NCBI RefSeq assembly: GCF_000426665.1
Contig: NZ_AUFU01000001.1
Coordinates: 310,001 to 374,000, forward strand
Source of the DNA: Centipeda artemidis DSM 19719
GTDB lineage: Bacteria; Bacillota; Negativicutes; Selenomonadales; Selenomonadaceae
Reading direction: 5' to 3'
Length of the DNA stretch: 64,000 nucleotides
Shown: positions 15,733-39,953 of the stretch, piece by piece
How the letters are laid out: every line of letters begins with the position of its first letter
Numbering within the stretch: position 1 is the stretch's first letter
The notes under the pieces: generated by a model
Database searches by the model: none
Told to the model about the DNA's origin: nothing
What the model saw: the letters and a program-made list of their open reading frames with translations, nothing else
Translations under genes and position numbers: made by a program

Positions 15733-16084
15733 GGGGATGTAATGGTCTCGACGGGGATGGGCGGTATGTGGACAGCGAGCCGGGGGGTCATCAACCCGTT
15801 AGTAAGGTGAAAACTTTTATTAAACATAAAAGCAAACGAAGACTACGCTCTGGCGGCTTAAGCCAGCCCCTTTCCGACCGTCTCCCGCACGGACGGAGCA
15901 AGGGGTCAAACGCGGGATACCCGGGAGCCATCGCACGATAACTCTCAGGGGAAATCAATCGTGATCGGCAGCGCATACCTTGTCTGCGGGGGATGCGTCG
16001 CCTAAATAAAAGCACAGACTGCGCTCGGAGAAGCCCATGTGACGTTATCTTCGGACAGGAGTTCGATTCTCCTCATCTCCACCA
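15733..16084 (+). ncRNA. ssrA: Transfer-messenger RNA (tmRNA), SsrA
   Basis: One-piece tmRNA of about 352 nt. The 5' end GGGGATG pairs with CATCTCC before the 3' ACCA to form the tRNA-like acceptor stem. The 3' part contains the T-arm GGAGTTCGATTCTCC. The tag frame starts at the resume codon GCA (15832) and reads ANEDYALAA followed by TAA (15859-15861), a typical degradation tag. It rescues ribosomes stalled on broken mRNA together with SmpB. CCA is encoded. It lies between the divergent lpxC operon and the end of the tetrapyrrole island. Confidence 0.97.
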
Positions 16085-22388: not shown

Positions 22389-22429
22389 AAAAACATTTCC
22401 TTTCCCTATAAAAATTAGTTCATCTATCT

Positions 22430-23501: not shown

Positions 23502-24536
23502 TCACGAGAGCATCCGCCGATTTTTCCGCAGGAGATAGAGGAAATACGGCGTGCCGAGCAGTGCAGTCATGATACCGACGCGAATCTCGATGGGGTCGAG
23601 GACGATGCGCCCGAGCGTATCGCAGAACACAAGCAACATCCCGCCCGCAAGGATGCTCGCGGGGAGCAGACGCCTGTGGTCGGGACCGACGATCATGCGC
23701 ATCATATGCGGCACGATGAGTCCGACAAATCCGATGTTGCCGCTGATGCAGACGCCCGTCGCCGTTGTCATGGACGCGACGGCAAGCAGAATGAGACGAT
23801 AGCGCGTGACGGGCATCCCGACGGCGCGCGCCTCGACGTCGCCGAGGACGAGGATGTTGAGGTGGCGCGCCATGAAGAGCATGACGGCAAGCCCGATGCA
23901 GATGGGTCCCACGCCGAGCAGGACATGCTCCCAGCGGCGATAGTCGAGGCTGCCGATCGTCCAAAAGAGATATTGCTGCATTTTCTGCTCGCTGATGACG
24001 GTCAAGATGCCCGCCGTAATCGCGCCGAGCAGCATGCCGACGACGACGCCCGCGAGGAGCAGCATCATCACGGGAATCTTGCCGTGCCGCATGGACAGCA
24101 TGACCGTGAGGGAGACCGCCGCGAGCGAGCCGAGGAAGGCAAACATCGGCAAAAAGAACATGCTCTCCTCCGATAGCCCGAGCGAGATCGCGATGACCGC
24201 GCCGACCGCCGCGCCGCTCGACACGCCGATGATGCCGGGGTCGGCGAGCGGGTTGCTGAAAATGCCCTGCATGACCGTCCCCGACGCGCCGAGGCTCGCG
24301 CCGACCATCAGCCCGACGAAGGTACGGGGAAAGCGGATATGCCAGAGCACCGCTTCCTGCTCGGGCGTGACCGCAACGTCCGTGAGCACGGGCAGCCCCG
24401 CCGCGTGTGCGAGCGAGGCGAGCACCTGCACAAAGGAAATATCAAACTGTCCCCACGAGAGCGAGAACAACGACACGAGAATAAGCAGCACTCCCATGAC
24501 GGGCGCAAGCGCGCGCAGTGAAAATTTTCTAGGCAT
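23502..24536 (-). CDS. BtuC/FecCD-type ABC transporter permease
   Basis: A 344-aa polytopic permease with about ten membrane segments. Family signatures are RFPRTFVGLMVGASLG, MQGIFSNPLADPGIIGVSSG and the C-terminal GFVGLIVPHMMRMIVGPDHR, where the ATPase contacts it. It should carry a corrinoid, haem or siderophore across the inner membrane together with the ATPase at 27911-28747 and the lipoproteins at 33837-35824. The start overlaps the stop of the NifK-like gene by eight bases, a tight coupling of transport to the reductase. A longer frame upstream is rejected because it runs inside that gene. Confidence 0.93.
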   Translation of the reverse strand: MPRKFSLRALAPVMGVLLILVSLFSLSWGQFDISFVQVLASLAHAAGLPVLTDVAVTPEQEAVLWHIRFPRTFVGLMVGASLGASGTVMQGIFSNPLADPGIIGVSSGAAVGAVIAISLGLSEESMFFLPMFAFLGSLAAVSLTVMLSMRHGKIPVMMLLLAGVVVGMLLGAITAGILTVISEQKMQQYLFWTIGSLDYRRWEHVLLGVGPICIGLAVMLFMARHLNILVLGDVEARAVGMPVTRYRLILLAVASMTTATGVCISGNIGFVGLIVPHMMRMIVGPDHRRLLPASILAGGMLLVFCDTLGRIVLDPIEIRVGIMTALLGTPYFLYLLRKNRRMLS

Positions 24537-25824
24537 GGTCTCCCCCCTTTTCCGCACGGCGGATCGCCCGCCGGATATGATCGTTCCAAAGATATTCCTG
24601 CGCGTATGCCGCGCCGCGCAGTCCCATGAGCGGCGCATCGGTCAAAAGCACCGCGTCGGGTGCGGGCTGAGCAATATGAAAGCGCGCGACCGCATCCTCG
24701 GGCGGCACCCCCGCAGTCTCGCTGCCGCTCCCAAGGAAGATTCCCTCACGGAGCGCCGCAATCGCCGCGCGCCCCGGGGCGCTCTCGGGCGCGGCGATCT
24801 CGTCCGCAATATCCGCGGCGTATCGCTCCGCCAGGCCGCCAAAGTCCTCCATCAGCACGGTCAGACGCCCCATATCCGCCCATTCGCCGCGCAGTGCGTG
24901 AGCGATGCCCAGTGCCGCAGACGGCGGCGCCGCGATGACGGCGCGCTCGTACCAGAGATCGCCCCACATGCTCTTTGCCGCGTTGATGCGGAAGAAGATC
25001 TGCCGCTGTACCCGCTCCGCCTCGGTAAGCGCGGCGTCGATACGCGGCGCGCGCAGGGCATCGTTGATCTCCGTGAGCCAGCGGCGCGTTCCCTCGACGC
25101 CGTACGGCGGAAGCGGCGCAATGTACGGCACATCGGTCGTTTGCTCCAAATATGCCGCAAGCTCCGCGCCGAGTTCGGCGTGAACGACGATGTTCAGCTC
25201 CGCCGTGCCGAGCGTCTCGAGCTCCGCCGCCGTACATCCGCCGCCCACCGGCGCGCCGATCGTATAGCCCGACAGTTCGAGAAGCCGCATTAGCTCGCAC
25301 AGATCATTCCCCGCGCGCAGATAGGCGGGCGTCAGCCCGAGGAGGTTGACGCGTCCGGGCGTCCGCGCCGCCCTCCGGGGGGCGATCTCCTCCATACAGG
25401 CGCGCGCGGCTTTTCGGTAGCCCGCGGCGAACATGCCGCCGAGCCCGCCGCTGTCAAAGGCGGCGACGCGGGGAAAGCCCATGCCGCGCGCGATGCTCCG
25501 CACATCGTCGCCGATGAGCCCCGCCGCGCAGCTGTTTTCCACCGCGAGCAAGGCGGGCGGCGGGTCGAGATGCGGCGCAAGCGTCTCGCGGATGTACTCC
25601 TCCGCGCCGAACACGATGGCGTCATTGTCGAGCTGCGTTGAAATCATGCGCTGCGCAATCATCGGGCACTCCTGTTCGAGCGTCCGCATCGCGTAAAAAT
25701 AGCACCACATGGGGCCGTTGACGGCGATGAGCGCGTCCTGAATCCCTGCGAAAAATCCCGCGGCGCCCGCGAGCGCGCAGGAATCCGAATGCCGGCAGAC
25801 GCTTTGAAACGCGTCCTCAGGCAT
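24529..25824 (-). CDS. Nitrogenase-like component 1 beta-type subunit (NifK/BchB-related)
   Basis: A 431-aa protein of the nitrogenase component 1 superfamily. Three cysteines sit where P-cluster ligands lie in NifK-like proteins: C16 in SDSCALAGAA, C41 in VNGPMWCYFY and C99 in VENSCAAGLIGDD. The length is that of BchB/BchN-type rather than true NifK. It should pair with the neighbouring NifD-like protein and receive electrons from the NifH-like protein. ATG at 25824 overlaps the NifD-like stop by eight bases. A G7 tract near the C-terminus (24542-24548) encodes Lys-Gly-Gly-Asp. Not a dinitrogenase: no nifE, nifN or nifB is present. Substrate unknown, possibly a tetrapyrrole. Confidence 0.85.
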   Translation of the reverse strand: MPEDAFQSVCRHSDSCALAGAAGFFAGIQDALIAVNGPMWCYFYAMRTLEQECPMIAQRMISTQLDNDAIVFGAEEYIRETLAPHLDPPPALLAVENSCAAGLIGDDVRSIARGMGFPRVAAFDSGGLGGMFAAGYRKAARACMEEIAPRRAARTPGRVNLLGLTPAYLRAGNDLCELMRLLELSGYTIGAPVGGGCTAAELETLGTAELNIVVHAELGAELAAYLEQTTDVPYIAPLPPYGVEGTRRWLTEINDALRAPRIDAALTEAERVQRQIFFRINAAKSMWGDLWYERAVIAAPPSAALGIAHALRGEWADMGRLTVLMEDFGGLAERYAADIADEIAAPESAPGRAAIAALREGIFLGSGSETAGVPPEDAVARFHIAQPAPDAVLLTDAPLMGLRGAAYAQEYLWNDHIRRAIRRAEKGGDHA

Positions 25825-27115
25825 AGAGCACGCCCCCTTCCCGCCGCCGCGCCGCACAGCGCCGCATACAGTCGATGCGCAGTTCCTCCCCGCGCCGCCC
25901 CGCCACGGGCAGCATCGGGAGGAAGATTTGCCGCAGACGCGGATTCGCGAGCTCATGCGTCGTCAGCACGAAGTCCGCCGCCGCGTAAAAGGGCTCCGCG
26001 TCGCGCTCCGCAATCACGGGCGCGGAACTCGCCTCCCGCACGCGCCGCTCCATCTCCGCGCGGTCGTCCGGCAGATAGGCGTCGAGAATCACCACGCCCG
26101 TGAGCACAACGCCCAGTTCCTCGAGCAGACGGCAGAGCGGTTCCGGCTTAAAATACCGCACGGCACGCCCGACGGCGAGCACGACGCGTTTTCCCGCGAG
26201 TGCGTCCCGTCCCGCGGCAAGCACCGCGTCAAACGCCGTACGCTCCTGCGCAATCAGCTCCTCCGCCGCCTCCTCGCGTCCCGTGAGCGCACCGATACGC
26301 GCGATCCAGCGCAGCGTCTCTCCCATGCCGACGGGGTAGATGTCCCCTGCGCAGACGATGCCGAACCGCTCCGTGAGGAGACGGGCAAAGTCCCGCACCT
26401 CCCGTTCGTGCGCCGCGTCCCCTTCCCTGCCGAGCAAAACGGAGAACTCTGCGGCGGGCACGGCTTTTAGCTCGGCGAGCGAGAGATAGGAGGGGAACTG
26501 AAGGACATCCCGCACGCCGAGTGCCGCGAGCAGACGCCGCACCTCGCGGACGTATTCGCCCGACGCGCCGCCGCAGTCGCCGAGAAGGACGGCGCGCCCC
26601 TGCTTTTTTTCCGCCGACGGCTCCATAAAGTTCTCGGCAAGCAGACGCATCGTCTCCAAATAGCCGCCGAAGTATTCGCCGTCGAGAAACCCGTGCGATT
26701 TCAGCGCGATGACGGGAATCCCGTATTCCTCCGCCGCCTCCTCTGCGATGCGCTCCGCATCGTCGCCGATGACGCCCGCCACGCACGACGAGACGATGAA
26801 GATTGCCTCCGGATGCGCGTTCATGACAACGTGGTCGAGACAGCGGCGCAGCAGCTCCTCGCCGCCGAACACCGCCTCGTCCTCGGCGATCCCGCTCACA
26901 AAGAGCGGCACAGCCCCGCGCTCCTCCGCAGCACCGCGCGCCATGCTGCGGTAATGCGCCCCGGTCTCTAATGTACGCGCGATATGGGCGCACGCGCGCG
27001 GGCTGTGGAACACGACCGCCACGCCGCGCACATAGGCAAGCGCGCGCCAAACGCCCGGCATCGCGCAGCTGCAGTTCGTCCGGCGAAAGATGAGCCGCTT
27101 TGCCTCAGTTGCCAT
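25817..27115 (-). CDS. Nitrogenase-like component 1 alpha-type subunit (NifD/BchN-related)
   Basis: A 432-aa superfamily member. Conserved cysteines are C15/C17 in NCSCAMPG, C42 in HSPRACAH and C111 in [12 protein letters not shown], matching the spacing of the three cluster ligands in NifD, plus the typical [10 protein letters not shown] just before. It would form a heterodimer or heterotetramer with the next gene product and hold an iron-sulfur cluster at the interface. The ATG at 27115 gives this N-terminus; the much longer upstream frame is antisense-like noise inside the NifH-like gene. It overlaps the NifH-like stop by eleven bases. Confidence 0.85.
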
Positions 27116-27914
27116 AGGACTCCACCAATGCCTCCAGCTCCTCAAACTCCATCGACTGCGGGACGGAGAGCCGGTCGTTCGTCTCAATCGCGCGCGCAAG
27201 CCTGCGGTAGACCTCCGCCTGCGCATCCTCGGGCGCGTGCTCGATGACCGTCTTGCGCCGAATCTCCGCCGCGTGGACGATCTGCGCGCGCGGTACGAAC
27301 GCGATGAGACGCGTATTGAGACGCGCGGCAAATGCCGTGAGCAGTTCCTCCTCGCGCGCGACGTTGCGGCTGTTGCCGATGATGCCGCCGAGCCGGACGC
27401 TGCCGCGCGCGGCGAAGCGCGCGACGCCCTTTGCGATGTTGTTCGCCGCATAGAGACTCATCAGCTCGCCTGAGGAGACAATGTAGATCTCCGTCGCATA
27501 TCCCTCGCGAATCGGTACGGCGAACCCGCCGCAGACCACGTCGCCGAGGACGTCATAGAGCACGATGTCCTCGTCCTCGATGGCATGCAGCGCCTTCAGC
27601 CGCTCCAGCGCGACGATGATGCCGCGCCCCGCACAGCCGACGCCGGGGTCGGGACCGCCCGCCTCGATGCATTTGATGTCGTGCCAGCCCGTGTGAACGA
27701 TGTCCGAGAGCTGCGCCGTGCCCTTTTTCTCGCGTTCGATATCGAGCACTGTCTCTTTGCAGATGCGACCGAGCAGCAGGCGCGTGGAATCGTTCTTCGG
27801 GTCGCATCCGATCTGACAGACGTGCCGCCCCATCTCCGCAAACGCCGCCGAGACGTTCGACGCGGTCGTCGATTTTCCGATGCCGCCCTTGCCGTAAAAC
27901 GCGATTTTCTTCAT
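27105..27914 (-). CDS. NifH/BchL/CfbC-type ATP-dependent reductase
   Basis: A 269-aa iron protein. The P-loop GKGGIGKST (residues 8-16), switch region CDPKNDSTR and both cluster cysteines are present: C94 in [12 protein letters not shown] and C128 in [10 protein letters not shown]. These residues hold a [4Fe-4S] cluster between two subunits, so the protein should be a functional ATP-driven electron donor to the NifD/NifK-like pair downstream. Similar proteins act in chlorophyll (BchL), F430 (CfbC) and methylthio-alkane (MarH) systems. It overlaps the BtuD-like ATPase by four bases (ATGA), placing a redox enzyme inside a transport operon. Confidence 0.92.
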
Positions 27915-28747
27915 GCCGTCGCTCCTTTGTCCTCGGATACCGCAAGCAGCGGTGAGAGCGTGCGCCGCTCCGACTCCGTAAACACCTCGATATGCCCCGT
28001 CCGCGCGTTCTCCGCGACGCGCACGGGCGTGCCGTACGCGAGGGAGAGGGTCTCCTCGCGCATGACCGCCTCCGGCGCGCCGTCCGCCACGATGCCGTCC
28101 GCCCCGATGAGCAGAAGCCGCGAGCAGAACCGTGCGGCGAGGGACAGCTCATGCACGACGAGCATCGCGGTGCGCCCGGCGGCGCAGAGTTCACTGCACA
28201 GGCGAAAAATCTCTTCCTGATAGATGAAATCAAGCCCCGTCGCCGGTTCGTCGAGCAGGAGGAGCGGCGCTTGCTGTGCAAGGATCTTTGCGAGCAGGAC
28301 GCGCTGACGCTGACCGCCCGAGACCTCCTGCACCGCCTTGTCACGGATGTCCCAGACGCCCGTGTACTCCATCGCGGCGCGGACGATTTCCTCGTCCTCC
28401 GGCCCCTCCTGCTCGTAGAATTTCAGATAGGGATAGCGCCCCGCCATCACGATGTCGTGCGCCGTGTAGCCGAAGGAGATGGCAACCTGCTGTTGGAGGT
28501 AGGAGACGAGGCGCGCGCAGTCCTTCTCCCCGTACCTATCGACGGGGCGCCCGTAGAGGAGCGCCTCACCCGCATGGGGCGCGAGCAGCCCGCGCATCGT
28601 CTTGAGGAGGGTACTTTTGCCCGCACCGTTCGAACCGATGATGCCGACGAGTTCGCCGCGCCCGACGGTGAAATTCATATGGTGCAGAATCGTATGATGC
28701 CGTGCATAGCCGACGGACAAATCGCGCGCCTCAAGAACAGCGTTCAT
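27911..28747 (-). CDS. BtuD/FecE-type ABC transporter ATPase
   Basis: A 278-aa ATPase with Walker [10 protein letters not shown], signature VSGGQRQRV, Walker [14 protein letters not shown] and an H-loop VVHELS. It belongs to the cobalamin/haem/siderophore importer class and should energise the permease at 23502-24536. ATG has AAGGAGG nearby. A 93-base gap with no clear promoter separates it from the ChlD-like gene. Its stop is fused to the NifH-like start. Confidence 0.92.
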
Positions 28748-28840: not shown

Positions 28841-30772
28841 CTAGGCGCCAAAATCCCGCGTCACGCCTTTGACAAGATGTAAAATTCTCTGTACCGACAA
28901 CTCTTCGATCGTATAACACGGCGCGTGCATCCGCGCCGCAATCTGCGCCGCGAGGTGCAGGCGCACAAGGTCCTGCTCGGTATCGAGAACGAGAGCGCGG
29001 ACGCCCGTATTCCCGATGGTCTCCGCCGCCGTGAGCGCCGCCTGCGCGGGGTCTTCTCCCTCCGGTGCGGCAGTCGCCCGCCCGTCCGTGAGGAGCACCA
29101 GCAGCGTCTCCGCGAGTTCCCCGCGCCGCGCCGCCCCCGCGAGATGCAGGAGCGCTTCGGACAGACCTGCCGCGAGCGGCGTGCGCCCTCCCGTCGGCAG
29201 TTCCCGCAGCAACCGCTGTGCCAGCTCCACGCTGCGCGTCAGCGGCAGCAGTGTCTCGGCACGATCGCGGCGAAACGCGACGAGACCCACGCGGTCACGG
29301 CGCACATACGCCTCTCGCAGGAGGGCGAGCATCGCCCCCTTCACCGCGCGCATCCGCGCGCGCGCCGCCATCGACCCGCTCGCATCCACGACAAAGAGGA
29401 TATTCGCACCGCGTTTTCGCTCGCGCACCGCACGCCGCAGATCGCTCCGCGCGATGACGATGCGCCGCCCGTCCGCCGCACTGCGGCGCAGGCGCTGATA
29501 GGGCGCGGCGGCGCGCAGTGTCGCGGCAAGGGCAATATCATGCTCCCGTTCGCGCGCGGCGGCATCACGCACCATGCGCCCGCCCGCCGTGCTCGCCGCC
29601 GTCAGGCGCTTGCCGCTGCCCGCTCCCACGGCGCGCCGCTCCCGCGTAAAATCCAGCAGCGGCATCGTCATCTGTGCGAGCGCGTCGAATATCGCGTCCG
29701 TACCGCCCCCGACAGGATTCTGCGGCGGCTCCGCGTCACCCAAATCGCCGCCGTCCTCGTCCGCGCTTTCCTCCGTGCGCTCCTCGGTCGGGGATTCGTC
29801 GGCACGGGAATCATCCCCTGCGGCATCTCCCACCTCGGGATGATCTCCCTGCGATGCATCCTGCCCCTGCTCTTCCTGCGCCGTATCGTCCGCATCCTGC
29901 GTGTCGCCGTCCGCACCGTCCCCCTCATTTTCCTCCGCACTCTGCGGGGGCGCGGGCATCTCGGGCGGCGCGCTCATGCGGTGCGGCAGGACGTAGAGCG
30001 CCGCCTCCTCCATATCGGAGGGCAGGAGATAGGCGCGTCCCGCGAGGGCGGCAATCGCGCGTGCCGTCTCCGTGAGAAACAGCTCCGCGCGGTTGCCCGC
30101 ACAGCGCGCCCGCACGACGAACTCCGCCGCAAGCGTGCGCATCGCGGAGGAGACGGCAACATCCGCAAGACGCTCCCGCGCCGCCGCAATAGACGCGCCA
30201 AGTTCCTCCTCCGCCGCACAATAGTCTGCGGCAAATGACTCGGGCGCACGGCTGTAGGCACAGGCACGGCGGACAACGGCACGCCGCTCCACCGCATCGT
30301 CCGCCCCCGAGAGCGAGACGAACATGCCGAATCCGTCGAGCACGGCGGCGGGCAGTGTGCCCTCAGCGGGATTCATCGTCCCGACGAGAATGACGGAGGA
30401 GTCCTCCGCCGCCGCGGCAAGCGCCGCGTGGAGGAAGGGGCGCGGCAATAGATTTGCCTCGTCGAGGAGGAGCAGACCGCCCGCCGCGCGCCGGAGAATG
30501 CCCGGCTGTGCCGTGCGTACGCCGTCCGCGAGCAGGCGCTCGATGTCCGTGCCGCCGAATACCATATCGTCGGTTGCACCGAGCGGGAGCTGCGTGAGTT
30601 TCCCCACCTGCGGGAGCGCGCCCGCCGCGCGTACGAGGAGCGTCTTTGCCGTTCCCTGCGCGCCCGAGAGGAGAAGCCCTCCCGCGCGCGGATTGACGAG
30701 GGCGATCAGGAGCGCACGCTTTGCCGCCGTCTGTCCGACAATCGCGGACAGGGGATAAACAGTATTTTTCAT
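28841..30772 (-). CDS. ChlD/BchD-like chelatase subunit (AAA+ plus VWA domain)
   Basis: A 643-aa protein. The N-terminal AAA+ domain has Walker A GAQGTAKT (37-44) and LLLLDEANLL. A long acidic linker rich in Asp, Glu and Gln occupies about 276-350. The C-terminal von Willebrand A domain has an intact MIDAS motif VVDASGSM (near 460). This is the layout of magnesium- and cobalt-chelatase D subunits, which with the I subunit act as an ATP motor on a CobN/BchH-type large subunit. The ATG at 30772 overlaps the stop of an 18-codon mini-frame. The longer upstream frame lies in chlI and is rejected. Unlike many ChlD proteins the Walker A looks functional. Confidence 0.9.
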   Translation of the reverse strand: MKNTVYPLSAIVGQTAAKRALLIALVNPRAGGLLLSGAQGTAKTLLVRAAGALPQVGKLTQLPLGATDDMVFGGTDIERLLADGVRTAQPGILRRAAGGLLLLDEANLLPRPFLHAALAAAAEDSSVILVGTMNPAEGTLPAAVLDGFGMFVSLSGADDAVERRAVVRRACAYSRAPESFAADYCAAEEELGASIAAARERLADVAVSSAMRTLAAEFVVRARCAGNRAELFLTETARAIAALAGRAYLLPSDMEEAALYVLPHRMSAPPEMPAPPQSAEENEGDGADGDTQDADDTAQEEQGQDASQGDHPEVGDAAGDDSRADESPTEERTEESADEDGGDLGDAEPPQNPVGGGTDAIFDALAQMTMPLLDFTRERRAVGAGSGKRLTAASTAGGRMVRDAAAREREHDIALAATLRAAAPYQRLRRSAADGRRIVIARSDLRRAVRERKRGANILFVVDASGSMAARARMRAVKGAMLALLREAYVRRDRVGLVAFRRDRAETLLPLTRSVELAQRLLRELPTGGRTPLAAGLSEALLHLAGAARRGELAETLLVLLTDGRATAAPEGEDPAQAALTAAETIGNTGVRALVLDTEQDLVRLHLAAQIAARMHAPCYTIEELSVQRILHLVKGVTRDFGA

Positions 30773-30825
30773 AGCGTATCGAGCCGCGACATGCCGCACG
30801 GCAGAGCGCGCAAAAGTATCCTCAT
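30769..30825 (-). CDS. Possible 18-codon coupling mini-ORF between the ChlI- and ChlD-like genes
   Basis: The frame M-R-I-L-L-R-A-L-P-C-G-M-S-R-L-D-T-L begins with an ATG overlapping the chlI-like stop (ATGA) and ends with a TGA overlapping the chlD-like ATG (ATGA). It fills the whole 45-base gap between the two genes. The chlD-like start has no good ribosome-binding site, so ribosomes may be handed over through this frame. Expression is not shown. Confidence 0.35.
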   Translation of the reverse strand: MRILLRALPCGMSRLDTL

Positions 30826-31841
30826 GCGAGAATCTCCCCCACGCGCGCCCAGTCGACGACCGTCTCCTCAAAGGGACGGCGGCGCACGCGGTGGGCAAGA
30901 GCGAGATGCGCCGCCGCGCGCAGGTCGTCCGCCGCGATGGCGTCGCGTCCTTCGTAAGCGGCATGGGCGAGCGCCGTCTTGATGAGCACAATGTCGCTGC
31001 GGTGACCGTCAACGCCGAGTTCGAGTGAGATCCGCGCCGCCTTGTCGATGCTCTCATCATCCGGAACGAGCGATGCAAGCCGCTCCTGCGCGCGGGCGAT
31101 GTGCGCGGCAAGCGCCGCCTGCTCCCCCGCATACGCCTCCGCGAACGCCGCAGGTTCGCGCTCGTAGGCAAGGCGGCGGCGCACAACCTCGGCGCGCTGC
31201 GCGGCGTCGCGTTCGCCGCGAATCTCCACGGACAGCGCGAATCGGTCGAGCAGCTGCGGGCGCAGCTCGCCCTCCTCGGGATTCATCGTCCCGACGAGCA
31301 CGAACCGCGCGGGATGCGCGTAGGAGATGCCCTCGCGCTCCACGGTATTGACGCCCATCGCCGCCGCGTCGAGGAGGATGTCGACGATGTGATCCTCGAG
31401 CAGGTTCACCTCGTCCACATAGAGGATGTTGCGGTTCGCTGCGGCGAGAATGCCCGGCTCGAACTTTTTCTTCCCCTCGAGAATCGCCGCCTCAATGTCC
31501 AGCGTCCCCGCGACGCGATCCTCCGTCGCGTTCACAGGCAGCTCCACGACGCGCATGGGGTGCGTCTCTTCGGCGAGCTGTTCCCCCGCCGCGACTTTTT
31601 CCATGCAGTCGGCACAAAGCGTTTCGCCCGTCGGCGCACATCGATAGCGACAGCCGCGCACGGTATGCAGCGGCGGCAGCAGCGCCGCGAGCGAGCGCAC
31701 CGCCGTTGACTTCGCCGTGCCTTTCTCCCCACGCAGCAGCACACCGCCGAGCGTCGGATCGATAACGTTCAAAATGAGCGCAAGTTTCATCTCGTCCTGC
31801 CCGACAATGGCTGCAAAGGGATATGTATACTCCTGTTTCAT
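30822..31841 (-). CDS. ChlI/BchI-like chelatase AAA+ ATPase
   Basis: A 339-aa AAA+ motor. Walker A GEKGTAKST lies near residue 38; Walker B is ILYVDEVNLLEDH; sensor region VGTMNPEEGELRPQLLDRF. Four cysteines (64, 68, 76, 79: CRYRC...CADC) form a zinc-ribbon-like insert seen in several ChlI relatives. It should form a hexameric ring with the ChlD-like subunit to drive metal insertion or removal by the CobN-like subunit. The ATG at 31841 is preferred over a TTG one codon earlier. It starts 21 bases after the receptor gene. Confidence 0.92.
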   Translation of the reverse strand: MKQEYTYPFAAIVGQDEMKLALILNVIDPTLGGVLLRGEKGTAKSTAVRSLAALLPPLHTVRGCRYRCAPTGETLCADCMEKVAAGEQLAEETHPMRVVELPVNATEDRVAGTLDIEAAILEGKKKFEPGILAAANRNILYVDEVNLLEDHIVDILLDAAAMGVNTVEREGISYAHPARFVLVGTMNPEEGELRPQLLDRFALSVEIRGERDAAQRAEVVRRRLAYEREPAAFAEAYAGEQAALAAHIARAQERLASLVPDDESIDKAARISLELGVDGHRSDIVLIKTALAHAAYEGRDAIAADDLRAAAHLALAHRVRRRPFEETVVDWARVGEILA

Positions 31842-31862
31842 CAAAAACCTCAGTCGAATATG

Positions 31863-33752
31863 TTAGAACTCGTAGGTCAGTCCCGCTTGGAAGAAACGTC
31901 CCTGACCGGGATAATACTTGCTGTTATACACCGGGTACTGCGCGTTCGTAAGGTTCAGCAGCTTCACATAAGCGCTCGTATGCGCATCGATCGCATAATC
32001 GACATTCAAATCGACGATCGTATAACTCTTCTGTCCAAATACCGTGCGGTCGAGCCCTGCTCCCATCGTTGCATTCAGATTGGCCGTCCATGCGCCCGCA
32101 CCATAGCGAATGCCGATGCGGTAGCCGTTCGGCCGCGCGTTCGTATTCTCCCAAACGAGCCCCTGCCCCGTTCCTTTGTCACGCTCCGTACGAATGTAGG
32201 AGTAGCCGAGATCGTAGCTCCACTCCTTACTCAGTTCTTGCCGGTAGGTCAGTTCCAGCCCCCGCTTCTTCTCCAAGTCGATATTCGTCGCATAGTAGTC
32301 GGAGAAATTCGGCGTCGTCCAACGAATCGCATCGTGGATTTTGCTTTGGAACACACTCAGCTCAAGGGACTTCTTCGCATCAAAAGCATGGCGCACGCCG
32401 ATCGTCTCCGTATGTCCGCTCTCGGGCTTCAGATTGCGGTTGCCGTACATGCCGCCCCATGGGCTGACGCTGTGGTAAAAGAGATCGTCCGCCTGCGGCG
32501 CGGCGAACACCCTGCCCCACGATGCGTAGAGCTGCGTCTTGTCGCTGGCCGCATAGTTCACGGCGAGCTTCGGCGTATAATGTGTGCCAAACGTACTGTG
32601 ATGATCCATCCGCACGCCCGGGATCAGCGACCATTTCCCATGTTCAAACGTATCCTGCACATAGAGCGCCGTATTTGTCAGCCGCTCCCCATCGTAGCCA
32701 TTCGCAAGGTTCGTCGAGCTGCTGCGGTGCCATTCCGCCCCTGCAACAAGGCGATGGTTCTTCCCGAGCTGCCACCCGTTCTGATAGTCGACACCCGTGA
32801 GGCGGGATTGGAACGCCCCGCTGAACTTCATGGATTTATAGTTGTCAAAGACACGCAGAACGCCCGGCGTCGTCGTATTTTCCTTAAAATTGTACGAAGC
32901 GCTCCAGTCGTTATAAAGCCGGTCCACATGGTCGGTGTTCCCAAATTGCAGGTTATGGCTGTTTCCGTCAAGCCTATGATGCACAACCGAAAGAGTCAGC
33001 GAATCGCCCGCGCCGAGTTTCTTATCGACACGCAGGCTCAGTTCGTTGTTGCGGTAGTCGCTTTTCGGCATTTTCCGCGTCTCACCGTCCGATTTATAAC
33101 GCATATAGCCGCGTCGGTCGATGCCGCCCGCAATACTCCAGCTCCAGTCCCCCGCGCTGCCCTCGTGCATGACGCGGTACTCCTGCGTGCTCCACGCCCC
33201 CGCAGCCACATCGATTGTCGTACGATTCTCCTTACCGCGCTTCGTGATGATGTTGATCACGCCGCCCGCCGCATCACTGCCGTAGAGTGCCGATCCACCG
33301 CCCTTCACGATCTCAATACGCTCAATCATCGACATGGGCGGCACTTCCTTCAGTGACGCGCCCGCTCTGCCGCTCCCCGTTCCCTGATCACTGTTGATGC
33401 GTCGGCCGTCAACGAGCACGAGGACTCGATCATCGCCGTTCAGTCGTACCATGTCCTGCATACCTGACTGCATGACGACGACACCGTTTACATGAGAGAT
33501 CGCCTCCGCAGCGTTGCGGTAGTGATTCTCCGCGATCTCCTCGGCGGTCACAACCGCGACGTTCGCCGCCGTCTGAGAAACCTGAGTGGGCACGCGCTCC
33601 GCCGTCACAACGACATCCGGCAGTGTATATGTATCACGATCTTGCACCTCATTTGCATACACATCGTTAGTACAATACCCCCCCGTCAGCAGTGCAACCG
33701 CAACAGCAGCCGAGAGTTTTCGATGTGCATTCTTTGTGTTCCATGCGTTCAT
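31863..33752 (-). CDS. TonB-dependent outer-membrane receptor (BtuB-like, upstream copy)
   Basis: A 629-aa receptor. The signal peptide (KLSAAVAVALLTGGYC... VYA) precedes TonB-box region YTLPDVVVTAERVPT, plug motifs DMVRLNGDDRVLVLVDGRR and GGGSALYGSDAAGGVINIIT, and a barrel with LYVQDTFEHGKWSLIPGVR, GRVFAAPQADDLFY and terminal GLTYEF. Size and layout are closest to the small BtuB-like receptors. It differs clearly from the three tandem receptors at the end of the island. ATG has AGGAGGAACTGAA. Placed directly after the binding-protein genes, it is the best candidate for the corrinoid or tetrapyrrole receptor of this operon. A G7 tract lies in the signal peptide. Confidence 0.92.
   Translation of the reverse strand: MNAWNTKNAHRKLSAAVAVALLTGGYCTNDVYANEVQDRDTYTLPDVVVTAERVPTQVSQTAANVAVVTAEEIAENHYRNAAEAISHVNGVVVMQSGMQDMVRLNGDDRVLVLVDGRRINSDQGTGSGRAGASLKEVPPMSMIERIEIVKGGGSALYGSDAAGGVINIITKRGKENRTTIDVAAGAWSTQEYRVMHEGSAGDWSWSIAGGIDRRGYMRYKSDGETRKMPKSDYRNNELSLRVDKKLGAGDSLTLSVVHHRLDGNSHNLQFGNTDHVDRLYNDWSASYNFKENTTTPGVLRVFDNYKSMKFSGAFQSRLTGVDYQNGWQLGKNHRLVAGAEWHRSSSTNLANGYDGERLTNTALYVQDTFEHGKWSLIPGVRMDHHSTFGTHYTPKLAVNYAASDKTQLYASWGRVFAAPQADDLFYHSVSPWGGMYGNRNLKPESGHTETIGVRHAFDAKKSLELSVFQSKIHDAIRWTTPNFSDYYATNIDLEKKRGLELTYRQELSKEWSYDLGYSYIRTERDKGTGQGLVWENTNARPNGYRIGIRYGAGAWTANLNATMGAGLDRTVFGQKSYTIVDLNVDYAIDAHTSAYVKLLNLTNAQYPVYNSKYYPGQGRFFQAGLTYEF
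33678..33684 (-). repeat. G7 homopolymer in signal peptide of the BtuB-like receptor
   Basis: Seven Gs on the coding strand encode the Gly-Gly of LLTGGYC inside the signal peptide. Confidence 0.75.
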
Positions 33753-33836: not shown

Positions 33837-34826
33837 CTAGCGCTTGACCGCCGTGAGGTGCAGCCCGTCGGGCTGCGCGAACGCGTCGCCGTACGCCATG
33901 TACGCAATTTCCTGCGCGCCGAATACGATGTCCTGCGAACCGTTGTAGATGTAGCCCTCGCGCGGTTCGCGCAGTGCGCCTGTCTTGATTGCCTTCAGTG
34001 TTGCGAGCGCGGGATCACCGAGGTATTTCTCACGGAACGCGGCGACATCATACGTGCCGTGCGCGTTGTAGGTCGGCAGGAAAAGAATGTCGGGGTCGAT
34101 GGCGACGAGCTGTTCCTTCGTCATGACCTGCCCCGTGTGTATCCCCAGCTCCGCCATGCCGTTCTTCACGCCCGCATAACCGCACGCGTCGTCAAAGGTC
34201 GATCCGATGCCGCCGTACGAGCTCATGAGCGAGATGAGGACAACGGTCTTGCGCTCCGCTGTCGGGATCTTGCTTGTCTCTTCCTTCAGCGCCGCGAGTT
34301 TTTCATCCATTTGCCGCACGAGGTCTTCCCCGCGCGCCGGCTCTCCCGCCGCCGCGGCGAGGAGCGTGACGGTCTCTCGTATCTCGTCGATGCTGCGCAC
34401 GCCCTTGCAGACGACGACGGGGATACCGAGATCGCGCAGGCTGTCGACGATCGTGATGTCTCCCCAGTCGGGCGCGACGACGAGATCGGGATGCAGCGCC
34501 ATGAGCTGCTCGCTCGTCGGCATTCCGATTTTCTCGGGGATATTCTGCGCGATCCCCGCAATGTTCGAGCTGACGGGATCATCCGCGAGTGCGTTGATCG
34601 CCGCCATGCGCTCGGGCTCGACCAGTCCGAGCATGGTGATGTCGGTGCTGAGGGAGAGCGTCACGATATGCTTCGGTTTTTCTGCAAAATGCGTGACATG
34701 CCCCTGTATATCGGTGACGTCGTAGCCGCCCTGCGGCACATTCTGCGCCGTGTCCCTGCCGCAGCCCGCGAGCGCGAGCATGAAGAGGAGCAGGACGGCA
34801 ATCGAGAGTCGTATTTTTTTCATCAT
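33837..34826 (-). CDS. BtuF-like ABC transporter substrate-binding lipoprotein (second copy)
   Basis: A 329-aa lipoprotein: signal ending LALAGC (lipobox) and a class III binding-protein fold with a rigid central helix (EIRETVTLLAAAAGE...). Characteristic stretches are GHVTHFAEKPKHIVTL, LGLVEPERMAAI and HPDLVVAPDW. It would carry a corrinoid, haem or metal chelate to the BtuC/FecCD permease. It shares the C-terminal pattern YNGSQ-x-IVFGAQE...YGDAFAQP with the upstream gene, so the two arose by duplication. The start overlaps the upstream stop (ATGATGA). Confidence 0.9.
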   Translation of the reverse strand: MMKKIRLSIAVLLLFMLALAGCGRDTAQNVPQGGYDVTDIQGHVTHFAEKPKHIVTLSLSTDITMLGLVEPERMAAINALADDPVSSNIAGIAQNIPEKIGMPTSEQLMALHPDLVVAPDWGDITIVDSLRDLGIPVVVCKGVRSIDEIRETVTLLAAAAGEPARGEDLVRQMDEKLAALKEETSKIPTAERKTVVLISLMSSYGGIGSTFDDACGYAGVKNGMAELGIHTGQVMTKEQLVAIDPDILFLPTYNAHGTYDVAAFREKYLGDPALATLKAIKTGALREPREGYIYNGSQDIVFGAQEIAYMAYGDAFAQPDGLHLTAVKR

Positions 34827-35824
34827 TCACCCTCCACGGCGGTCAAATGACGGTTCGTCGGCTGTGCAAATGCGTCGCCGTAGAGCATCGCCGCCGTCTC
34901 CTGCGCGCCGAACACGATGTTCTGCGAGCCGTTGTAGACATAGTGCCCCCATGGATGCTTGATATGCCCCTCGCGCACCGCCGTCATCTGCGCGAGCGAC
35001 GGGTCGCTCATGTACTCGCGCCCGTAGGTTTCCTCGTTCGAGCTCGGAATCCGATAGGACGGGAGGAAGATATAGTCGGGGTTCGCCGCGACGAGCTGTT
35101 CCTTCGTCATGACCGTCCCGCTCTTATTCCCCGCCGCCGCCTTTGCGTTGATCGCGCCCGCGTAGTCGCACATGACGTCAAAGCTGCACCCCGCGCCGCC
35201 GTAGCCCGCCATGATGGAGATAAAGGCGACGCTCTTGCCGCGCTCCTCCTCGGGTACGGCGTCCACGCGTGCCTTGAGCGCCGCGAGCTCCGTCTGCATC
35301 ATTTCGACGAGCTTTGCCCCGCGCTCCGGCTCGCCCACGGCATCCGCCGCAAGACGGATGTTGTAGATCACATCGTCGAGATTGCGCACCTGCCGGCACG
35401 CGACGACGGGAATACCGAGCGCGCGGAGGGCGTCGACCTGCTCGGCGGGCATGAAGGGAATCGTAAAGATGAGATCGGGCTTCATGGACGCCGCCTTTTC
35501 CACCGAGGGCATCCGCGGGATCGCGTTCGGCACGCGCTGCGCGTATGCCGCCACGTTTGAGCGCATCGGATCGGTGTGCAGCTCGTCGACGGAGATCATG
35601 CGCTCCGGCTCGACGAGTCCGAGCACGATCTCGTCCATCGACATGGAGTAGGTCATGATGCGCTGCGCCTTTGCAGGCACCTCGACCTTCGTCCCCTGCG
35701 CGTCGGTGACGAAATGCTTCTCCGCGGGCTTTGCCGCCTGATCGCTCCCACATCCTGCACCGATGATGGTCAGTAAAAATAGGACGAGCAGTAAAATGCC
35801 GCCTAGTCGTTTATCCGTCCGCAC
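34823..35824 (-). CDS. BtuF-like ABC transporter substrate-binding lipoprotein (first copy)
   Basis: A 333-aa lipoprotein with signal ILLLVLFLLTIIGAGC (lipobox GAGC) and a periplasmic binding-protein fold: GTKVEVPAKAQRIMTYS, LGLVEPERMISVDE, KPDLIFTIPF. The GTG at 35824 is chosen because it has GGAGG just upstream and gives a proper signal peptide; it overlaps the CobN-like gene by 14 bases. Probably serves the same permease as the next gene, perhaps with a different ligand range. Confidence 0.88.
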   Translation of the reverse strand: MRTDKRLGGILLLVLFLLTIIGAGCGSDQAAKPAEKHFVTDAQGTKVEVPAKAQRIMTYSMSMDEIVLGLVEPERMISVDELHTDPMRSNVAAYAQRVPNAIPRMPSVEKAASMKPDLIFTIPFMPAEQVDALRALGIPVVACRQVRNLDDVIYNIRLAADAVGEPERGAKLVEMMQTELAALKARVDAVPEEERGKSVAFISIMAGYGGAGCSFDVMCDYAGAINAKAAAGNKSGTVMTKEQLVAANPDYIFLPSYRIPSSNEETYGREYMSDPSLAQMTAVREGHIKHPWGHYVYNGSQNIVFGAQETAAMLYGDAFAQPTNRHLTAVEGE

Positions 35825-38800
35825 GTTCCTCCAGCTCTCCTTCCATCGACAGATAGAGTTCCCGCAGCTGCGCAAGGGTCTCCTCCTGCGCCCGCCAAAG
35901 TCCGCGGTGCGCCGCTTCGAGCAGTGTCTCCGCGATGCGGTGCAGCGCCCACGGGTTCACCTCGTTCATCCATTCCCGCATGTCCTCGTCGAGCGCATAT
36001 TTTTCGGCATACTTCTCATACATCCAGTCCTCCATGACCGCGCTCGTCGCATCCCATTGGTAGCTGTGCGCGAGATAGGAGGCGAGGTCGGAGGCGCCCT
36101 TGTAGCCGTGTTTTTTCATGCCGTTGATAAATTTCGGATTCATCGCCTCGGCGCGGAAGATGCGCTTTGCCTCCGCCTGCACCGTGCGGACGCAGGTGCG
36201 CCGCCGGTCGGAGCTGTCGCCGCTGTAGGAGCGCGGCGCTTTCCCCGTGAGGGCGCGCACGGTCGCGATCATACCGCCGTGGTACGCGTTGAAATCGTCC
36301 GAGCTGAACATGTGCGTCTCGCGGTTGTCCTCGTTCTTGATTGTGACCACAAGCCCCGCCATGCGCCGCCGAAAGATCTCCGGTTCGTAATTGCCGCACA
36401 CGCCGCCGCTGTAGGCGTGTCCGGAAAAGCGCGTATAGACGGCGGCGAGGTCGTCAAGCGTTTCCCACTCCTTGGATTCGAGCAGTGCGCCGATGCCCGC
36501 GCCGTATGCGCCGGGCGGGTCGCCGAAGATGCGGTAGGACGCCTTTTCCCATGCGGTCGCTTCGGTTTCACCCGCCGCGATCAGCTCCGCCGCGTCCTCC
36601 TCCATATGTTTTCGGACATAATTCTCCTCGTGGGATTCGTCGAGCGTGCCCGCCATGCGTGCCGCCTCGTCGAGCCAGCGCGCGCCGTCGGGCATGGTAT
36701 CGCGGAACAGTCCGCTGATGCGCCCCGTAACGTCGATGCGCGGACGCCCGAGCTCCGCAAGCGGGATGACCTCGATGGCGCGCACGCGCCCGCTTGGCTG
36801 CTGCCATACGGGGCGTATGCCCATGAGGTAGAGGAACTCGGCGATGCACTGTCCGTGACTGCGCATGTTTGAACCCGCCCAGAGGACGATGCCGACCGCC
36901 TCGGGGTAATGCCCCTCTTCCCTGATATAGTCCTCGATCACGGCGTCGCCGAGCTGCTTTCCAAGCTCCCACGCCGCGGGCGAGGGGAGTGTGCGCGGGT
37001 CGATGCCGAAGAAGTTCCGCCCCGTCGGCAGGAGATCTGCGCCGCCGCTCGACGGCGCACCGCCCGGCGCAGGCTCGATGTACGCGCCCGAGAGCGCGGT
37101 GATCGTATGCACGATCTCCTCGTCCGTGCGCCGCAGATTCGGCACGATGTCCGTGCAGATATAGGAGAGCACGCACACGAGCTGCGGGCGCATCTGTGCG
37201 CGGCATTCCCCGGCGGTTAGAGTTTCCATGACCGCATTCACGGCGTCCGGCGAGAAATCGCGCGCCATCAGTGCGGCGATGAGACGCGTGCCAAGCTCTT
37301 CAAGGCGGTCGAGCGCCATCCCGTAGGTTGTCCCGTCGGGGAGCAGTGTCCCGCCCGCATCGAGCAGTGCGTCGTAGTCATATCCCTGCCCTTCGGCGAG
37401 CACGCGCGTCAGTGCGGGAATATCGCCGTTGTCCATGCGGACGAGGGATTTCACATAATCGACAAGATCGTCCTCGGGCGGCATCCGTCCGAGTACATGA
37501 AGCCCCGTGCGAATCTGGAGATTTTTAAGATCTGTGATGTAGTTGTGCAGGCGCAGCGCATACGATTCGAAGTCCTCTTCCTCGGGCACCTCGTCCTCGA
37601 GATGCGCCGCGCGCGCCGCTTCGCGCACAAGCTCCGCGGCGGCGTCCGCCAATTCGGGCTGCGTGCGGGCAAAATGCCCGTACTCATCGAGTGCGCGCTC
37701 GAGCTCCGCAATATCGTCGCACGCGCCTGCAAGGCTCATCGGCGGCGAGAGGTGACTGATGAGACACGCCGCCCCACGCCGTTTCGCCTGAATACCCTCG
37801 CCGACAATCGTCATCCAGTAGGGATAGATGTCGGGCAGGTCGCCGATGGAGATGTCGGGGTAGCACGAGGGCGAGAGTCCCGCGTTCTTGCCCGGGAGCC
37901 ATTCAAGCGAGCCGTGCGTCCCGACGTGTACAACGGCGTCCACACGGCGTACCGTGCGCAGCCAGTGATAGAACGCAAGATAGTGATGCGTCGGCGCGGC
38001 GTCGGGCGAGTGGAGGAGTTTCCCCGGATCCTCGCCGAATCCGCGCGGCGGCTGTATCGTGATGAGGATATTTCCCTTTTCGATGCCGGGCAGGATAAAG
38101 GCATCGTCCGCGACGAGCACATCGCCCGGCAGTTCGCCCCAATCCGCGCACATGCGCTCCTGCACGCGCGCGGGCAACGTCAAAAAGTAATCGCGGTAGT
38201 CCGCCGCGGAGAGCCGTCCGCACGCATTTCGAATCTGCTCGTCGGTCAGATAGCGGCGGTCGTTCGTCGCCTGCGCCGTGATCTCGTCCATGAGCGCCTG
38301 CGCCGTCTCGGGGATGTCCTCGACGCAGTATCCCGCCTCCTTCATCGCGCGCAGGAGACGCACGACGCTCTCGGGCGAGTCCAGCCCCGCCGCACTGCCG
38401 ATGCTCGCGTTCGTGGGCGGATAGTTGTGGAAAATAACGGCGATCTTCTTCTCCGCATTTGCTTTGCGCCGCAGCACGGCATAGCGGTGCGCGCGCCGCG
38501 CGAGGAGTTCCATGCGCTCGGGGAGCGCGACATAGATGGAGAGCCCGTCGTCCATGCGCTGCTTTGCCGCAATCGGCACGGCATGGATAACGCCGTCGAA
38601 CTCCGGCAGACTCACGCTGATGGAGACCTCCATCGCATTCATCCCGATGAGAGAGTCCTCCCACTCCGCGCGCTCCGCTAGTATCGTGTACGCCTGTAAC
38701 CACGGCACGCCGAGCCGAACAAGTTCCTCGATCGGCGTCCCCGCCGCGTGCAGGGAAAATTTCAAGCAGCTCACGACGACATCGACCGCCGGCTCCCCGT

Positions 38801-39494
38801 CACGGTAAAAATATCGGTGCAGCGTCTCCGCAAAGGGCGGCGCGCCGAGCTCCGCGTTCGCAAGCGTATTCGTAAAGACGGGGACGACGTTCAGCCCCGC
38901 CGCCTCAAAGGCACGCGCGAGCGCCGTATGATAGGTGAAATCGCCCATGATCCACTCGGAGCGGTAGAACACAATGCCCGCCGTCGGGCGCGCAGGGTCG
39001 ACGTGCGCCGCACGGTACGCCGCGATGTCCGCGCAGTCCCCCCGGTAGTCCGGGTGCCATACGCCGTGCCACGGCTGTTCCTGCGGCACAGGCACCGCTC
39101 CCGTATAGCCGCCGAAGCGCGCCGCGAGATAGAGCATCGCACCGCGCACATTCTCCTCCCCGTCAAAGCGGAAATAGCGGCGCAGCTCCATGAGATCGTC
39201 GTCCGTCATCCCGAACGAAATCCGCTCCGCGCCGCTGTTCTCGACGAGGAACGCATGGCATTTCTGTACGCGCAGGAGGTACGCGGACGCACGCTGAAGA
39301 AACGGACGGTCAAGTCCCGTCCCCATCCACAGGAAGAGCACGGCGTCTGCCGCCGCCGCGGCGCGCATGTGATCGGGCGTCCATGCATCCTCCCCCTGCA
39401 CATAGTACGCCGCACAGGAGATGCCCTCCGGCAGCACAAGCCGCCCCGCCATATAATAATTTCGCGATACATTCGTATAAAAGGCGATATGCAT
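35811..39494 (-). CDS. cobN: CobN-like metallo-tetrapyrrole chelatase large subunit
   Basis: A 1227-aa member of the CobN/BchH family. Family blocks are HVGTHGSLEWLPGK (near 525), SCYPDISIGDLPDIYPYW, GEGIQAKRRGAACLISHL, SNMRSHGQCIAEFLYLMG, and ELGRPRIDVTGRISGLFRD (near 915). The usual reaction is ATP-dependent cobalt insertion into a corrin ring with an I/D motor, here the ChlI- and ChlD-like proteins of the same operon. The same fold also serves Mg-chelatase and the haem-iron-removing HmuS proteins of Bacteroidetes, so insertion versus removal, and the metal, are open. No signal peptide, so cytosolic. First gene after a cobalamin riboswitch. Confidence 0.92.
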   Translation of the reverse strand: MHIAFYTNVSRNYYMAGRLVLPEGISCAAYYVQGEDAWTPDHMRAAAAADAVLFLWMGTGLDRPFLQRASAYLLRVQKCHAFLVENSGAERISFGMTDDDLMELRRYFRFDGEENVRGAMLYLAARFGGYTGAVPVPQEQPWHGVWHPDYRGDCADIAAYRAAHVDPARPTAGIVFYRSEWIMGDFTYHTALARAFEAAGLNVVPVFTNTLANAELGAPPFAETLHRYFYRDGEPAVDVVVSCLKFSLHAAGTPIEELVRLGVPWLQAYTILAERAEWEDSLIGMNAMEVSISVSLPEFDGVIHAVPIAAKQRMDDGLSIYVALPERMELLARRAHRYAVLRRKANAEKKIAVIFHNYPPTNASIGSAAGLDSPESVVRLLRAMKEAGYCVEDIPETAQALMDEITAQATNDRRYLTDEQIRNACGRLSAADYRDYFLTLPARVQERMCADWGELPGDVLVADDAFILPGIEKGNILITIQPPRGFGEDPGKLLHSPDAAPTHHYLAFYHWLRTVRRVDAVVHVGTHGSLEWLPGKNAGLSPSCYPDISIGDLPDIYPYWMTIVGEGIQAKRRGAACLISHLSPPMSLAGACDDIAELERALDEYGHFARTQPELADAAAELVREAARAAHLEDEVPEEEDFESYALRLHNYITDLKNLQIRTGLHVLGRMPPEDDLVDYVKSLVRMDNGDIPALTRVLAEGQGYDYDALLDAGGTLLPDGTTYGMALDRLEELGTRLIAALMARDFSPDAVNAVMETLTAGECRAQMRPQLVCVLSYICTDIVPNLRRTDEEIVHTITALSGAYIEPAPGGAPSSGGADLLPTGRNFFGIDPRTLPSPAAWELGKQLGDAVIEDYIREEGHYPEAVGIVLWAGSNMRSHGQCIAEFLYLMGIRPVWQQPSGRVRAIEVIPLAELGRPRIDVTGRISGLFRDTMPDGARWLDEAARMAGTLDESHEENYVRKHMEEDAAELIAAGETEATAWEKASYRIFGDPPGAYGAGIGALLESKEWETLDDLAAVYTRFSGHAYSGGVCGNYEPEIFRRRMAGLVVTIKNEDNRETHMFSSDDFNAYHGGMIATVRALTGKAPRSYSGDSSDRRRTCVRTVQAEAKRIFRAEAMNPKFINGMKKHGYKGASDLASYLAHSYQWDATSAVMEDWMYEKYAEKYALDEDMREWMNEVNPWALHRIAETLLEAAHRGLWRAQEETLAQLRELYLSMEGELEERADG

Positions 39495-39531: not shown

Positions 39532-39556
39532 AAAAAAATCCACCCTTCGGTGGATT
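39532..39556 (-). terminator. Riboswitch expression-platform terminator
   Basis: AATCCACC/GGTGGATT stem (39549-39556 with 39537-39544), four-base loop, then a run of seven Ts with one A on the minus strand. It lies between the cobalamin aptamer and the CobN-like gene, 38 bases before its start. Expected to form when cobalamin is bound. Confidence 0.85.
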
Positions 39557-39639
39557 CTACGCGCCGAGCTGCGGCACAATGCGGTCAATGCTCTGCCGAC
39601 GCTGCAAATCCCCTCCCCATCGCTCGTGGGTCAAACGGT

Positions 39640-39880
39640 GACTGTCGGTAGGGCAGTTCTCCCGGCTCAGGTTCACAGCTCCTCTGCACCTTCCCAAAGC
39701 AACAGCTTCAGTGGCTCTATCGAAAGACGCACATTTTCACCTTTCGGCGAAAACATCGCGCTTTTCTGCAAATTCGCTCCCCAATACGGTGGCGTGACCG
39801 CGCCGGAAACGCTCCGGCTTCTCTATTAAATCCTTGCGGATACCCAACCCGTGCAGTACAGGCGGTACACCACGCAAGAT
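39640..39880 (-). promoter_or_regulatory. Cobalamin riboswitch (aptamer)
   Basis: Reading the minus strand, the conserved blocks appear in the right order: GCGGTCACGCCACCGTAT (39784-39801), GCCACTG (39709-39715), GGGAAGGTGC (39686-39695) and the B12 box AGCCGGGAGAACTGC (39653-39667). Followed by a terminator, it should switch off the CobN-led operon when adenosylcobalamin is plentiful. Outer boundaries are approximate. Confidence 0.9.
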
Positions 39881-39925
39881 GCTGCGTGCACCGCTCTCTC
39901 TGCACATTCTATATTATTCGCGCTT

Positions 39926-39953
39926 ATTATAACATTGATTTTATTCTTGTCAA
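39926..39953 (-). promoter_or_regulatory. Strong promoter of the cobalamin-regulated island
   Basis: Minus strand TTGACA (39948-39953), 16-base spacer, TATAAT (39926-39931). The -35 box overlaps the stop codon of the upstream lpxL gene. The predicted leader RNA is about 425 bases and contains the riboswitch. Confidence 0.8.

Follow-up and report, generated by a model that had tools for sequence, protein, structure and literature searches.

Gene organization of the locus

The sequence analysed is a 64,000-nt stretch of Centipeda artemidis DSM 19719 (GCF_000426665.1, NZ_AUFU01000001.1, 310,001-374,000), hereafter called the window. The genome, labelled G000, is Selenomonas-like; among named relatives, Selenomonas sp. 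F0473 is the nearest (88% for NflD, one of the proteins described below). At the locus, a promoter, a cobalamin riboswitch and a terminator-like hairpin are followed by a gene cluster that begins with cobN. The whole arrangement lies on the minus strand; the first-pass annotation of this DNA had named no strand.

The cobN gene (35811..39494), whose start codon (ATG, 39494) is located 3' of AAGGAG, encodes the large subunit of a class I cobaltochelatase (TIGR02257, 912 bits; cut-off, 822). It is followed by genes for two BtuF-like (Peripla_BP_2) substrate-binding proteins (34823..35875 and 33837..34826; PF01497, 1.3e-21 and 2.9e-20, respectively), a TonB-dependent receptor of the B12 or siderophore type (31863..33752), a ChlI-like AAA+ chelatase motor subunit (30822..31844; assigned by profile matches), a ChlD-like chelatase subunit with a VWA domain (28841..31186; a mechanically defined ORF, the true start of which lies further in) and an ABC ATPase of the corrinoid/haem/iron-chelate type (27911..28747). 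Next are three genes of a nitrogenase-like trio: nflH for a NifH/CfbC-like iron protein (27105..27914), nflD for a nitrogenase component-1-like subunit (25817..27115; ATG at 27115 assigned by homology, with the longest ORF starting from 27451) and nflK for a second such subunit (24529..25824; ATG at 25824 supported by a ribosome-binding site, with the ORF starting from 25956). Genes for a FecCD-type permease (23502..24638) and a radical SAM protein (22430..23488; profile matches) complete this part of the cluster. Three more TonB-dependent receptors of similar size, all on the minus strand, form a possible tail (20418-22511, 18359-20311 and 16202-18241), beyond which a tmRNA is located (15733-16084).

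From cobN to the radical SAM gene, all genes are on one strand and either overlap or are separated by no more than 93 nt, as judged from mechanical ORF starts. Gaps of 106 and 117 nt occur at the tail receptors, and their membership in the operon is therefore uncertain. Other promoter-like sites found on the same strand between 20300 and 39990 match at best 9/12, and the terminator-like sites on this strand of the same region are all inside genes except for a stem of 5-6 pairs at the end of chlD (28850-28833). The first-pass annotation had placed the whole chelatase and reductase set under the riboswitch; short gaps and the lack of a rival promoter above 9/12 support such a corrinoid-controlled operon spanning both sets of genes, and we infer a single transcript.

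The leader region

The promoter, TTGACA-16-TATAAT (39953..39926), matches at 12 of 12 positions and contains TG before the second hexamer; TTGACA shares bases with the stop codon of an lpxL-like gene (39950-40825). In the surrounding 2 kb, four promoter-like sites were found (0.8 expected from shuffled sequences), among which this one alone reaches 12/12. A covariance-model search, proposed in the first-pass annotation as a check, yielded a significant match to the cobalamin riboswitch family RF00174 (39862..39635; 70.2 bits; gathering score, 31.5; E = 2.8e-15), aligned over the full length of the model (1-189 of 189), and no second match at the gathering score was found within the 64-kb window. 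A B12-box-like sequence, AGCCGGGAGAACTGCC, is aligned within this match at 39667..39652, and we take it to be the B12 box. The promoter, the complete riboswitch ahead of a CobN-led operon and the B12 box had thus all been read correctly; the riboswitch and this reading of it are by themselves ordinary. In comparison with the RF00174 class, the window has a full-length aptamer, a promoter and a terminator-like hairpin, but no clear L5-L13 pairing: a search for at least five paired bases found none in the window leader. Alternative folds of the leader also exist. The aptamer scores below its orthologue in genome G013 (70.2 vs 94.7 bits), and promoter, aptamer and hairpin are all kept between the two.

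An intrinsic-terminator-like hairpin, AGAATCCACC-GAAG-GGTGGATTTT (39558..39535), is located 76 nt 3' of the aptamer and is followed by a T run; the fold of 39560-39530 has a predicted energy of -14.0 kcal/mol. The hairpin and T run of the terminator described earlier are both present, whereas its description as an eight-bp GC stem is inaccurate because the stem has 10 pairs, 4 of which are G-C. Such hairpins were surveyed within 230 nt 3' of the aptamer in 21 leaders from the window operon or related operons. Under a looser rule, they were detected in 18 of the 21 leaders, all at -12.7 kcal/mol or below. Applied to 840 segments drawn at random from these loci, this rule gave 52 hairpins, of which 12 reached -12 or below. 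An earlier, stricter rule, to which this control does not apply, gave hairpins in 12 of 19 leaders. The three leaders without a call under the looser rule are L048 and L078, which lack a hairpin, and L077, which was skipped as its L13 motif was not located and in which a hairpin is present under the stricter rule.

A P13-L13-like hairpin, AGTCACC...CGAGCGAT...GGGGATTT (39643..39606), was identified, the 5' and 3' strands of which pair at -10.6 kcal/mol; the motif CGAGNGAT is found in 20 of the 21 leaders. Its 3' strand, GGGGAUUU (39606-39613), is a candidate antiterminator strand. The antiterminator pairing in the window was calculated at -7.4 kcal/mol, compared with -4.1 +/- 2.0 for shuffled arms, with a fraction of 0.063 of the shuffles being as good, and this fraction is 0.05 or less in just 4 of 18 leaders. 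Conservation of the pairing was not borne out: over 18 leaders, the arms paired with their own partners at a mean of -7.3 and with swapped partners at -7.0. Because own arms hardly beat swapped arms, the putative antiterminator is retained as a proposal for the window alone.

Chelatase and transport genes

Among solved relatives, the window protein is closest to CobN (7c6o, 777 bits), followed by ChlH (506 bits) and HmuS (376 bits). Together with the TIGR02257 score, which exceeds the cut-off, and the ChlI and ChlD motor subunits encoded alongside, this comparison separates it from the HmuS/BtuS group (376 vs 777 bits) and supports the corrinoid-related purpose, as opposed to general iron or haem supply, that the first-pass annotation had argued for. 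All 14 genomes of the genus encode CbiK and CbiC. They are therefore likely to make corrinoids de novo with early cobalt insertion, a step for which CobN would not be needed. In L090 (15969-19690, genome G072), cobN is found as two consecutive ORFs, and in several genomes CobN was matched in two blocks.

The transport genes are ambiguous in sequence, fitting corrinoid, haem or siderophore uptake, and do not decide the question of purpose. For the first receptor, the B12 receptor is the best NCBIfam model (TIGR01779, TonB-B12), far under its cut-off (200 vs 599.7 bits), and among solved relatives the colicin I receptor (96 bits) exceeds BtuB (76 bits). The other TonB-dependent receptors match siderophore models best. 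The ABC ATPase is nearer the cut-off of the haem model (213/261 bits) than that of the corrinoid model (226/537 bits), and FhuB and BtuC models score alike for the permease. The idea that CbiZ is a fixed component of the cassette was not borne out: only 5 of the 14 genus genomes have a CbiZ-like gene with it, and no match was found in the window or anywhere in G000. The family match of the CbiZ-like gene lies under the CbiS cut-off (60 vs 250 bits).

The nitrogenase-like trio nflHDK

Neither NflD nor NflK reached the cut-off of any NCBIfam model listed at E = 1e-8. The trio falls below nitrogenase models (NifH, TIGR01287, 384 vs 394; NifE, 99 vs 505), the models for F430 synthesis (CfbC, 372 vs 402; CfbD, 38 vs 268) and those for DPOR/COR (e.g. 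BchL, 212 vs 345; BchB, 68 vs 490). In alignments of 15 rows, with NflD residues numbered from 27109, C15, C40 and C109 of NflD and C18 and C43 of NflK are kept in all rows, and C101 of NflK is kept in 12. The spacing of these six cysteines resembles, as we take it, that of the P-cluster ligands of nitrogenase, which would set the trio apart from CfbCD, DPOR and COR.

Among solved structures, NflD matches 9fmg/9d9u best (E = 1.1e-23), an entry that is labelled 'Nitrogenase' and that we assume to be methylthio-alkane reductase. At the position aligned with a cysteine of 9fmg_A, presumably a ligand of the metal cofactor, none of the 15 NflD rows has a cysteine, the alignment being gapped there. 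An iron-molybdenum-type cofactor is therefore less likely, and the missing cysteine is compatible with a tetrapyrrole substrate. Few nitrogenase-like tetrapyrrole reductases are known, namely DPOR, COR and CfbCD, according to one account (PMC7242693). Like them, nflHDK encodes NifH-like and NifD/K-like proteins and lies beside tetrapyrrole chelatase genes; unlike them, it comes under no NCBIfam model at its cut-off and stands under a cobalamin riboswitch.

A second NflD was detected in 9 of 14 genus genomes. In L056, L057 and L058 (genomes G012, G005 and G011, respectively), a second nflD-nflK pair is located away from cobN; nflH was recognized in L056 alone of the three, and in all three Ser replaces the third conserved Cys of the second NflK. 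In L055 (13905-19199, G032), a cobalamin riboswitch is followed by a gene for a CbiK-like protein, a relative of sirohydrochlorin cobaltochelatase (190 bits; cut-off, 400), and then by nflHDK.

Distribution and conservation

CobN is encoded in all 14 genus genomes, with nflHDK no more than a few kb away in each. An RF00174 match stands at the head of the orthologous operon in 13 of them (the window, L040, L042, L045, L046, L047, L048, L050, L051, L052, L094, L095 and L096), that is, in all 13 with a readable head; in the remaining genome, G008, the contig begins inside cobN, and the G005 operon was read across the record start. Elsewhere in the family, G029, G113 and G148 also have RF00174-headed operons. 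In most relatives, the riboswitch is followed by a receptor or binding-protein gene, the radical SAM gene, chlI and chlD, and then by cobN and nflHDK. As gene order varies among relatives, the linked unit is the operon rather than a riboswitch-cobN pair.

In a sample of 300 Negativicutes genomes, taken as the same set for both counts, the NflD family was found in 73 genomes from 29 of 97 genera (NflD profile, E = 1e-70 or better) and CobN in 103 (E = 1e-100). Both occur in 68 genomes, NflD alone in 5 and CobN alone in 35, counts that are uncorrected for the relatedness of the genomes. Twenty diverse loci were compared: nflD and nflK are present in all 20, nflH in 19 (no nflH lies beside nflD in L081), cobN in 15, a BtuC-like permease gene in 12, chlI in 11, the radical SAM gene in 10 and a CbiZ-like gene in 8 within the stretch. 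For the five loci lacking cobN in the examined stretch (L080, L082, L084, L085 and L091), cobN-like genes lie 736 bp beyond L082 and 260 bp beyond L084 (33% identity in the latter); L080, L085 and L091 have theirs on separate contigs.

Nine of the 20 diverse loci contain RF00174, with 18 matches in 363,041 bp; the density in those 20 genomes (223 matches in 53.6 Mb) would predict 1.5, ignoring genome relatedness. On the same footing, an aptamer lies less than 500 bp 5' of nflH on the same strand in 7 of 20 loci (L077, L078, L084, L086, L087, L088 and L090) against 0.02 expected. In a sample of the phylum, NflD was detected in 3 of 398 genomes (E = 1e-50), all from its own family, in a sample that perhaps lacks Dehalobacter and Acetobacterium.

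The closest described arrangement is operon-2 of Dehalobacter restrictus, which contains a cobalamin riboswitch, transporters, two CbiZ, CobN and Mg-chelatase subunits and is reported to be induced 346-fold upon corrinoid starvation (PMC4285132). It shares with the window the cobalamin riboswitch and terminator (predicted there), BtuFCD-like transport, CobN and the chelatase motor, and it differs in having CbiZ, which is absent from the window genome and represented by CbiZ-like genes in some relatives. The word 'nitrogenase' occurs 0 times in the main text of that paper, to which the comparison was confined, with gene lists in figures and supplements outside it. No publication joining a nitrogenase-like enzyme and CobN under a cobalamin riboswitch was found in our literature search, which left subscription journals mostly uncovered. 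The unusual part of the locus, which the first-pass annotation had not singled out, is a NifHDK-like reductase travelling with CobN-ChlID and chelate-import genes.

Functional interpretation

The aptamer, the promoter, the terminator-like hairpin, the gene order and its conservation were established by computation. Read together, they most probably represent a terminating RF00174 OFF switch that controls an operon for the uptake and processing of corrinoids in a Selenomonas-like bacterium. RNA polymerase would start just 3' of the promoter at 39953-39926. With the presumed ligand, a corrinoid, bound to the aptamer, P1 and P13-L13 would be held and GGGGAUUU (39613-39606) would be locked in P13; the hairpin at 39558-39535 would then form and transcription would stop short of cobN. 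When corrinoid is scarce, GGGGAUUU may pair with the 5' arm of the terminator (fold of 39640-39549), and polymerase would read through at least the genes from cobN to the radical SAM gene. The receptors, binding proteins and BtuCD-like transporter would import a corrinoid, which may be processed by CobN-ChlI-ChlD, the radical SAM enzyme and the ATP-dependent nitrogenase-like reductase. An ON switch or a degenerate riboswitch, to which the alternative leader folds, the missing L5-L13 contact and the lower bit score than that of the G013 orthologue might point, is quite unlikely given the retention of promoter, aptamer and hairpin in G013 and the presence of the hairpin in 18 of 21 leaders. Published cobalamin riboswitches of the same class also repress: in a B. 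subtilis reporter, twelve from Sporomusa ovata and Veillonella parvula are described as functional and repressing (PMC9600662). The V. parvula mutA riboswitch, from a related bacterium, is likewise a cobalamin riboswitch with P13-L13 (PMC9600662), but it controls methylmalonyl-CoA mutase; a similar arrangement is found in G000 at L066 (see below) and not here.

More tentatively, the neighbouring genes suggest the corrin ring or its cobalt as the target of the reductase. NflHDK might be an unrecognized tetrapyrrole-type member of the nitrogenase superfamily that, under B12 shortage, works with CobN-ChlI-ChlD and the radical SAM protein to reduce imported corrin-type rings or to re-metallate them. 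Negativicutes would in this way gain the use of metal-free, oxidized or otherwise unusable corrinoids that are out of reach of other bacteria. We hold this proposal with somewhat less than even confidence. The riboswitch gives the question of the substrate a handle, as it indicates when the enzyme is wanted. A corrinoid substrate would mean an extra chemical step in the B12 salvage of Negativicutes and would explain why a CobN-type chelatase is kept despite early cobalt insertion by CbiK.

Three other functions of the operon were weighed against corrin processing. CobN-ChlID may instead complete de novo B12 synthesis by ordinary late cobalt insertion, with the nitrogenase-like genes as bystanders. 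ChlID with CobN has been described as the signature of cobalt insertion in the aerobic pathway (PMC8123684), and the Dehalobacter operon likewise places CobN and chelatase subunits under a cobalamin riboswitch (PMC4285132). We nevertheless consider late insertion improbable: the presence of CbiK and CbiC in 14 of 14 genus genomes, and in G000 a cobalamin riboswitch 319 nt 5' of the cbiK match, make early insertion available, and nflHDK is embedded among transporter genes, with CobN found in 68 of the 73 genomes containing NflD. Slightly more improbable still in our estimation is a role in haem-iron supply, in which CobN would be an HmuS/BtuS-like dechelatase, the receptors would import haem and the riboswitch would be a mere regulatory borrowing. 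In the HmuS/BtuS haem systems, a CobN-superfamily protein is likewise accompanied by TonB-dependent receptors and an ABC transporter, the CobN-like HmuS and BtuS have been tied to haem iron in Bacteroides (PMC12583661, PMC6460266), and the receptors, permease and ATPase of the window show roughly equal fits to B12 models and to haem or siderophore models. This ambiguity of the transport genes, together with the lack of CbiZ, slightly weakens the main explanation and slightly raises that of haem supply. In contrast to HmuS/BtuS, however, the window protein is much closer to CobN and passes the TIGR02257 cut-off, ChlI and ChlD motor genes are present, and the operon begins with a cobalamin riboswitch in each of the 13 genus genomes with a readable head.

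We give still less weight to a reductase of the methylthio-alkane type, which would supply methionine when B12-dependent methionine synthesis fails, although methionine salvage would be useful under B12 shortage and 9fmg/9d9u is the best solved relative of NflD. The aligned cysteine is absent from all 15 NflD sequences, and the recognized neighbours, among many that are unassigned, are chelatase and transport genes.

Other cobalamin riboswitches in the genome

In total, ten RF00174 matches were identified in the whole genome of G000. The riboswitch located 5' of the cbiK match (C3:95115-95891) is at L065 16211-16402 (C3:96210-96401, minus strand). Another, at L066 15110-15336 (C1:511109-511335, minus strand), lies ahead of methylmalonyl-CoA mutase genes and meaB; the mutase is a B12-dependent enzyme, and a riboswitch for the Veillonella mutase is described in the literature (PMC9600662, PMC7160235). 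A further match is located ahead of a nickel/cobalt-type ABC permease gene, and the match in L060 is followed by a binding-protein gene and a receptor gene. Large ORFs are present downstream of the matches in L062, L063 and L064. In L064 (C1, minus strand), two cobalamin aptamers are arranged in tandem (14594-14765 and 15034-15213; 101.7 and 37.8 bits, respectively) and are followed by one ORF of 819 amino acids and another of 3,921 amino acids lacking an NCBIfam match at E = 1e-15.
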